Source of the DNA: Treponema sp.
GTDB lineage: Bacteria; Spirochaetota; Spirochaetia; Treponematales; Treponemataceae
Direction of reading: 5' to 3'
NCBI GenBank assembly: GCA_017534445.1
Contig: JAFXWC010000071.1
Span: 124,001 to 188,000, forward strand
DNA length: 64,000 nt
Positions 48,689 to 50,479 of this stretch are shown here, piece by piece (the stretch's first letter is position 1; each line of letters opens with the position of its first letter). The position numbers and the translations under genes were made by a program. The notes under the pieces were generated by a model. The model did not search any database. It had not been told where the DNA came from and saw only the letters and a list, made by a program, of their open reading frames with translations.

Positions 48689-48716
48689 CAAAAAAACCGC
48701 CCGGTTTAGGGGCGGT
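48689..48716 (-). terminator. Rho-independent terminator of the ribosomal operon
   Basis: On the minus strand ACCGCCC (48716-48710) pairs with GGGCGGT (48702-48696), followed by seven Ts (48695-48689). This is a strong intrinsic terminator placed 20 bases after the zinc-ribbon gene, so that gene is the last of the ribosomal operon. Confidence 0.92.
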
Positions 48717-48735
48717 CTTACAGAACAATTTTAGC

Positions 48736-48993
48736 TTAGGCTGAAGGTGCTTCTTCTGCAGCTGGAGCTTCTGCGGCTGGAGCGGCAGCAGCGGCGGCTT
48801 TCTTAGCAACCTTTGCTTCTGCACGGGCCTTGTTCTTCAAGTTAGCCTTACAGAATTTGCAAACCTTTACCTTCTTTCCGTCAACTTCCTGTTCGTAAAG
48901 AGTCTTGATCTGCTGTGCGCCGCAAATTGCGCAAACGCCACGGCCATGATTTGGTTCTTTACGGATACCTGTTCCACGATGTGCTTTAGACAT
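48736..48993 (-). CDS. Small zinc-ribbon protein at the end of the ribosomal operon
   Basis: This 85-residue protein has a basic N-terminus (KAHRGTGIRKEPNHGRG), two CxxC pairs (CAICG and CKFCK, about 20 residues apart) that should bind one zinc, and an Ala/Pro/Glu-rich flexible tail (AAAAAAPAAEAPAAEEAPS). It resembles no known ribosomal protein. Its start lies 3 bases after the rplQ stop and its ribosome site, AAGGAG, lies in the last codons of rplQ, so translation is coupled. The terminator follows it. A role on ribosomes or in RNA binding is inferred from context and charge only. Confidence 0.78.
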   Translation of the reverse strand: MSKAHRGTGIRKEPNHGRGVCAICGAQQIKTLYEQEVDGKKVKVCKFCKANLKNKARAEAKVAKKAAAAAAPAAEAPAAEEAPSA

Positions 48994-48996
48994 GGC

Positions 48997-49437
48997 TTAC
49001 TCCTTTGCAGCTTCAGCTTTTTCAGCCTTTGCTTTTTTTGTAGACTTTTTCTCGTTCTTGTCAGAATCTGTTTCTGGAAGCTTGTAATCTACCAGCTCAA
49101 GAATTACCATCTCGGCAGCATCACCCTGACGGAATCCCATCTTCAAAACGCGTGTGTAACCACCATTGCGTTCCTTCATGCGGGGACCAAGCTCTGTGAA
49201 CAACTTGTTCAAGACTCTTTCGTCTGCGATAAATTTAGCTGCAATTCTTCTGTTGTGAACTGTATCAACCTTTGCACGAGTAATTAATTTTTCGGCAGCT
49301 CTGCGGGCTTCAGCAGCCTTTGCCTTTGTAGTAGTAATGCGTTCATACTTAAACAAAGAAGCTACCATATTGCGTAACATTGCACGGCGGTGTGCAGATG
49401 TGCGTGAAAGCGGATTAAATCCAATTTTATGATTCAT
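48997..49437 (-). CDS. rplQ: Ribosomal protein L17
   Basis: This 146-residue protein has the L17 start [23 protein letters not shown] and the conserved [14 protein letters not shown]-like helix. The C-terminal tail ([17 protein letters not shown]) is a Lys/Ala/Glu-rich extension beyond the core of L17. The start ATG 49437 is chosen because longer reading lies inside rpoA. It overlaps rpoA by 11 bases. Confidence 0.97.
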
Positions 49438-50479
49438 TCGTTTCGTCCTTCTGTTTGCGTAACACAACATCCTTTACATGGCTGTAATCAGTCATGCCTA
49501 AAGACAAACCGCGCTCGGCCAATTTTTCCTTGATTTCCTCAAGGCTCTTTTTTCCAAAGTTACGGGTCTTTGTAATGTCGTCTTCCGTTTTCTTGGTTAA
49601 TTCACCCAATGTGTGAATATTTGCGTTCTTAAGACAGTTTGAACTACGCACAGACAGCTCAAGGTCTTCCACCTTTGTATCGAGCAACTGGCGGATTCTT
49701 GTGTCACCTTCTTCACCATCATCGCTTGAAGAATATTCGCTTTCGTTAAAGTTAACAAAAATTGCGAAATAATCTTTTGCAATCTTTGCAGCATCAGCAA
49801 GAGCATCTTCTGGGCTGATAGTTCCGTCGGTCCAAATCTCAAGAATTAACTTGTCATAATCGTTGCGCTGTCCAACACGGCACGGTTCAATAGAATATTT
49901 TACCTTTGGTACCGGAGTAAAGATACAGTCCATCGGAATTGTTCCAACAATTTCCAGATAGCGTTCGTTTACTTCAGCAGGCACATATCCTCTGCCGCAA
50001 TCAACCTGAATGTCAAATTCAAGATGTGCGCCTTCCATCATTGTAAAGAGCTCAAGTCCCTTTGTCATGATTTCAAGCTGGCCTTCTTTCTCAAGGTCTT
50101 CACTTTTTACGGTACCAGGGCCTTGAAATTCGTAATGAATCGTATCCTGTTCAACATCCCTAGGCAAACGCAAGCGTATTTGTTTTAAGCTGTTCAAGAC
50201 TTCCAGCGTATCTTCGGAAATATTCGGAATTGCTTCGAATTCACCGGAGATAAGGTGTGGAACTCCATCTGCGTCACGAGAGCTAATCTGGACTGCGGAA
50301 ATTGCGTATCCCTGAATAGAAGAGAGCAACACACGGCGCAAGGTATTACCTACCGTTGTACCGAAGCCCGGTTCAAAAGGATAAGCAGTAAACTTACCGT
50401 AGTTTGGATTCTGCTCCTGATGCTCAAATGTTATGCCTTTCGGTTTTTTAAACCCCTTAAGGAGATTTTTGCGAGCCAT
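49427..50479 (-). CDS. rpoA: RNA polymerase alpha subunit
   Basis: This 350-residue protein has the N-terminal assembly domain ([21 protein letters not shown]) and the C-terminal domain with helix-hairpin-helix motif ([40 protein letters not shown]) that binds UP elements and regulators. It starts at ATG 50479 with AAGGAG upstream. It follows rpsK with a 172-base gap where rpsD is found in many other bacteria but is absent here. Confidence 0.98.

Follow-up and report, generated by a model that had tools for sequence, protein, structure and literature searches.

The gene that closes the ribosomal operon in the window, the 64,000-nucleotide stretch of Treponema sp. DNA analysed here, encodes a small zinc-ribbon protein that is judged, with a probability of about 0.6, to be an unrecognised, class-specific and probably stoichiometric ribosomal protein of the Spirochaetia, for which we infer both the stoichiometry and the binding to rRNA. 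The gene itself, its conservation, its restriction to one class, its operon position, its codon usage and the existence of forms with (C+) and without (C-) the zinc-binding cysteines were observed directly, and data on abundance and co-expression were taken from the literature. Slightly favoured, too, is the fuller reading of an unnamed stoichiometric protein specific to the Spirochaetia, which includes TP0214 of the syphilis agent T. pallidum, represents an unknown zinc-ribbon family with zinc-free variants and occupies a position that is either vacant or differently filled in Borrelia ribosomes. A search of the open-access literature returned no paper in which the protein is called ribosomal. 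The features concerned are as follows.

48736-48993, minus strand: gene for a basic protein of 85 residues with a zinc ribbon, orthologous to TP0214 of T. pallidum and TDE0793 of T. denticola (open reading frame with ATG start; orthologues identified via gene order)
48937-48993, minus strand: basic head at the N-terminus, residues 1-19 (MSKAHRGTGIRKEPNHGRG), conserved from the first methionine onwards (family alignments; pI 11.7)
48850-48933, minus strand: zinc ribbon from C21 to C48 (CxxC-20-CxxC), with a beta-hairpin between the cysteine pairs (alignments; AlphaFold2 model, pLDDT 84)
48739-48819, minus strand: Ala/Pro/Glu/Lys-rich C-terminal tail, residues 59-85, unconserved across the family (alignments; pI 5.0)
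49000-49005, minus strand: Shine-Dalgarno sequence AAGGAG, formed by the final two rplQ codons AAG GAG (sequence; arranged alike in relatives)
48693-48719, minus strand: intrinsic terminator of the operon (10-pair stem, -15.8 kcal/mol, shuffle z -2.8)
48997-49437, minus strand: rplQ (bL17), the upstream partner, with an A/K/E tail of its own (PF01196, E 1.1e-38)
49427-50479, minus strand: rpoA, upstream of rplQ

The ATG lies 3 nt past the rplQ stop codon TAA (48997-48999), and the product of 48736-48993 on the minus strand reads MSKAHRGTGIRKEPNHGRGVCAICGAQQIKTLYEQEVDGKKVKVCKFCKANLKNKARAEAKVAKKAAAAAAPAAEAPAAEEAPSA. Upstream are found rplQ, rpoA and the remainder of the ribosomal operon; downstream, past the terminator, the next gene in the same orientation is a hydrolase-like open reading frame. 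The preliminary description had taken the gene to be the final one of the operon, 3 bases after rplQ and with the terminator stem behind it, and had placed its ribosome site within the end of rplQ; both statements hold. The single orthologue per genome found among relatives (56 of 59, and 41 of the 41 that are near-complete) rules out a chance open reading frame and identifies a real conserved gene. Absence from other treponemes had been named beforehand as a possible refutation, and T. pallidum and T. denticola both carry an orthologue.

The conserved unit of the family is formed by residues 1-58, which comprise the head and the ribbon. The head has the consensus M-S-K-x-H-R-G-x-G-[ILV]...G-R-G and is followed by C-P-x-C, a hairpin with K30 and Y33-E34, the motif [IV]-C-K-x-C and a short basic helix. 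K3, R6, G7, C21, K30 and K46 are invariant in a profile alignment of 47 diverse members. The AlphaFold2 model (mean pLDDT 84) is that of a small ribbon with a hairpin at residues 33-44 and a helix at 46-64, and the zinc ribbon with two CxxC pairs that had been described earlier is confirmed as C21/C24 and C45/C48. The tail varies in length from none to about 60 residues across the family, even inside the order to which the window belongs, and tails of the A/P/E type occur in its own genus and some relatives. A comparison of this tail with the flexible hinges of stalk proteins is unsupported and was rejected, because the tail is unconserved and often absent and because rplQ of the same genome likewise ends in a low-complexity A/K/E tail.

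All four cysteines are kept in 89 of 95 distinct members. The site has been lost in the other 6, of which three belong to the T. pallidum genus and the rest come singly from families f14, f17 and f22, the families with C- forms being f1, f14, f17 and f22. The C- members read CP[VI]T...[IV]SK.[GA] and retain the remainder of the protein. At least two losses, or one loss and one transfer, are needed to explain the taxonomy, and two changes suffice on a gene tree built without the trait columns, which is poorly resolved. A recurrent loss of zinc cysteines, giving just such a C+/C- pattern, is attributed to zinc-ribbon ribosomal proteins in the account of Makarova 2001 given in PMC3353972. That the cysteines are lost recurrently whilst the protein is kept argues for a structural role of the zinc, not a catalytic or redox one. 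The basic glycine-rich head and the basic residues around the ribbon would bind rRNA, with the ribbon acting as a rigid anchor in which zinc may be dispensed with and the protein still retained.

The profile of 47 members matches 210 of the 393 genomes sampled from the phylum, 207 of which fall within the class. Outside the class the matches amount to 3 genomes of about 138, with E values of 0.002-0.0055 that represent chance level. The class sample comprises about 255 genomes (207 with and 48 without a match, our own tally from the profile searches). The 48 are made up of the 36 genomes of family f7, taken to be the Borreliaceae on account of their small genomes and their bL38, a further 11 in f8, f9, f10, f12 and f13, and one congener (G411) in which the absence perhaps reflects an assembly gap. 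In all 36 Borreliaceae sampled the profile search finds no copy. The family is therefore essentially confined to the class Spirochaetia, with several losses. The earlier suggestion of a factor limited to some spirochaetes was correct as to the restriction and too narrow in the word "some", the gene being nearly class-wide. A scan for the head motif across 84,980 species returned 500 stretches, 483 of which encode relatives, and among the 80 matches listed nearly all come from Treponema or other spirochaetes. One relative, 77% identical, lies on a contig labelled as an Acetatifactor sp. MAG (L245), most likely a mis-binned Treponema contig.

The protein is evidently dispensable, as it is missing in the Borreliaceae and several other lineages, and this counts against a ribosomal protein. 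Absence from the Borreliaceae would be more readily understood if the protein were an accessory factor, namely a ribosome-associated but non-stoichiometric protein of assembly, hibernation, rescue or translation, bound to rRNA via its zinc ribbon. The evidence for a stoichiometric protein would fit a factor of this type equally well, but the near-universal single copy speaks against it and it is considered unlikely. Traits of lineage-specific ribosomal proteins are present, in that the protein is small, basic, encoded in single copy and conserved from Met1 and in that its zinc site alternates between C+ and C- forms (6 of 95 members). The ribosome-type character proposed at the outset is supported. 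Coding and expression together with ribosomal proteins apply within the window's order, with the expression taken from the literature, and not outside it.

Codon usage was determined for the window and for stretches of six genomes in which the gene is detached from rplQ. The window gene has a value of 0.158, which the 23 operon genes bracket (0.045-0.249), and all 51 background genes have negative values that lie below it; the neighbouring downstream gene is background-like. The detached gene falls in the ribosomal range in three genomes (G376, G341 and G370); its value in G361 is borderline, and in G064 and G403 its codon usage is not of ribosomal type. The test is of low power in G361 and G064, because the ribosomal genes there barely differ from the background. 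The bias in G064 and G403 counts against the ribosomal reading, and weak codon bias in some genomes would suit a non-stoichiometric factor.

The gene order in one relative (G107) is rpoA-rplQ-gene-grpE, the last of these being named by eye. TPANIC_0213 closes the ribosomal operon of T. pallidum and TPANIC_0215 is grpE (PMC8525777); the orthologue, which sits between them, is hence TP0214, an uncharacterised 7-kDa protein. TP0214 came first by spectral count in the proteome of Osbak et al. 2016, with an NSAF of 19.6, ahead of L34 and S18 (PMC5015957), although such counts carry much noise when a protein has a mass of only 7 kDa, and it is not among the highly abundant proteins of a deeper proteome from 2023 (PMC10600179). 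The expectation that the protein is made in amounts similar to ribosomal proteins is therefore supported by the first of these proteomes, but not by the second. The TP0214 transcript differs between culture and rabbits (310 to 830, log2 1.28) and follows the operon genes, all of which are higher in rabbits (PMC8525777). In T. denticola, TDE0793, which follows rplQ, changes by +2.22, with rplQ at +2.20 and rpoA at +2.40 (PMC3914990). Both the top spectral count and a transcript that tracks the ribosomal genes in the two species argue against a non-stoichiometric factor. In the window's order the gene has become the last member of the spc/alpha operon, so that the protein would be produced along with bL17 and in amounts typical of ribosomal proteins.

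TP0214 has also been named as a candidate antimicrobial peptide (PMC10600179), with a ranking of small unknown proteins in PMC9200625, and it is indeed small and cationic. Small Lys/Arg-rich ribosomal proteins would presumably score alike, however, and such a role is scarcely credible for a protein that is conserved from Met1 throughout a class and whose gene closes a ribosomal operon.

Within the window's order the gene is found immediately after rplQ in every genome examined, with anything from a 17-nt overlap to a 247-nt gap, and outside it rplQ adjacency was seen in none of the genomes examined. The detached gene has a good Shine-Dalgarno sequence and often its own terminator. Its neighbours are unrelated to translation and include, in several families, a following gene for a Mpl/MurC-like ligase, a Ste24/M48-like peptidase or a DJ-1/PfpI-like protein (names assigned by eye). 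The Ste24/M48-like gene, which by eye encodes a membrane peptidase, lies close behind on the same strand in three families (L096, L101, L102, L110, L114), and the ligase gene lies behind in other families (L076, L078, L099, L109). As the gene stands apart from rplQ outside that one order, the ribosomal-operon link is a trait of the order and not of the family. The proposal to look for the gene after rplQ throughout the spirochaetes accordingly succeeded in all genomes examined of the window's order, the operon position being special to it. Neighbours of this kind count against a ribosomal protein, and a position apart from ribosomal operons in most families is shared with many non-stoichiometric factors; small ribosomal genes such as that of bL38 are similarly scattered.

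A search for an rRNA binding site gave two 23S columns, forming one base pair (E. coli 1012-1149), that separated genomes with and without the gene fully in a first set. This signature was rejected, as it is broken by two held-out genomes that lack the gene (G229 and G261). The 16S rRNA yielded one column only, which consists partly of gaps, and a repeat of the 23S search over 16 genomes found 23S in one.

If the ribosomal reading is true, the composition of the treponeme ribosome differs from that of the model ribosomes of Borrelia and E. coli, which matters for the evolution of ribosomes and for structural studies of drugs that target them in spirochaetes. TP0214, first in one T. pallidum proteome and listed as a candidate antimicrobial peptide, gains a concrete and testable identity. 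It would also follow that Pfam and NCBIfam still miss small zinc-ribbon ribosomal proteins.

Among known families, Pfam, NCBIfam and PHROGs contain none that matches above its cut-off, the matches obtained being to generic zinc ribbons, and no relatives were found in phages. Foldseek gave no match at E 0.001, and the best VIA-align score (Z 3.7, to a FYVE domain) reflects a generic zinc-finger shape. Weak structural matches include ribosomal chains, and Borrelia bL38 is absent from the structure-search matches listed. That profile and fold matches to ribosomal proteins are only weak and generic counts against the ribosomal reading. Weak, scattered resemblance to the zinc ribbons of aMBF1, Elf1, NrdR and TFIIB, together with rpoA two genes upstream, would suit a zinc-ribbon factor that binds RNA polymerase or nucleic acid and merely shares the rpoA-rplQ transcript. 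These matches are generic, fall short of the cut-offs and vary between family members, and outside the order the gene keeps neither rpoA nor rplQ. The aMBF1 profile TIGR00270, matched by 7 of 47 family members, reaches a nominal E of 3e-5 but only 23.9 bits against a cut-off of 110, and unlike aMBF1 the 85-residue protein has no helix-turn-helix domain nor room for one. A factor of this sort is hence improbable.

The ribosomal proteins eS26/aS26 share with the family protein a GRG-type basic head, a zinc ribbon and an Ala/Pro tail. A weak VIA-align match (Z 2.6) was obtained to ribosomal chains that we take to be eS26, but no sequence match was found and eS26/aS26 are restricted to archaea and eukaryotes; the resemblance is a lead and not a test of kinship. 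bL28 is likewise a zinc-ribbon protein, whose C- forms swap their cysteines similarly (CxxT, then [IVL]Sxx[GA]), and the family protein superposes weakly (Z 2.0, 36 residues at an rmsd of 2.2 A) on 5v7q_X, presumably bL28. Unlike bL28, the family protein lacks the loop with KT.R..PNL. Identity with bL28 was rejected, with no PF00830 match, a separate bL28 gene in 14 of 14 genomes tested and no significance in hhalign. In the T. pallidum genus the family protein is zinc-free and bL28 retains its cysteines (L073, L098 and L100 with L087, L089 and L091), and in the f22 genome (G367) both proteins are zinc-free (L080 with L081).

The closest analogue is bL38, identified here through a match to PDB 8FMW chain Ai (Borrelia bb0162). 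The family protein is not bL38 under another name: in the window's genome the bL38 profile finds another locus outside the window (G000:C17:16141-16308, minus strand; L339 893-1066, reverse strand), and in hhalign the similarity of the two profiles does not rise above the reversed control. A complementary distribution was also rejected, since both genes co-occur; among the roughly 255 class genomes sampled, 254, that of the window included, have bL38 as a gene in its own right. bL38 is thus class-wide, and in treponemes and several other families it carries two cysteine pairs (CPDC...CQKC), from which it follows that Borrelia bL38, with no zinc cysteines, is a C- form. In two genomes (G171 and G367) it lies within about 0.5 kb of rpmB, the bL28 gene (L342; G367:C94:57489-58052), a layout that resembles the order rpmB-rpmG-bL38 of Bacteroidota. 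The family protein is therefore analogous to bL38 and not a member of its family. Borrelia bb0162 and Flavobacterium bL38, like the family protein, have a basic head and a small ribbon, in about 57 residues, with C+ and C- forms within the class, and bL38, since seen in the Borrelia 70S structure (PMC10618245), was itself overlooked in Borrelia annotation until cryo-EM.
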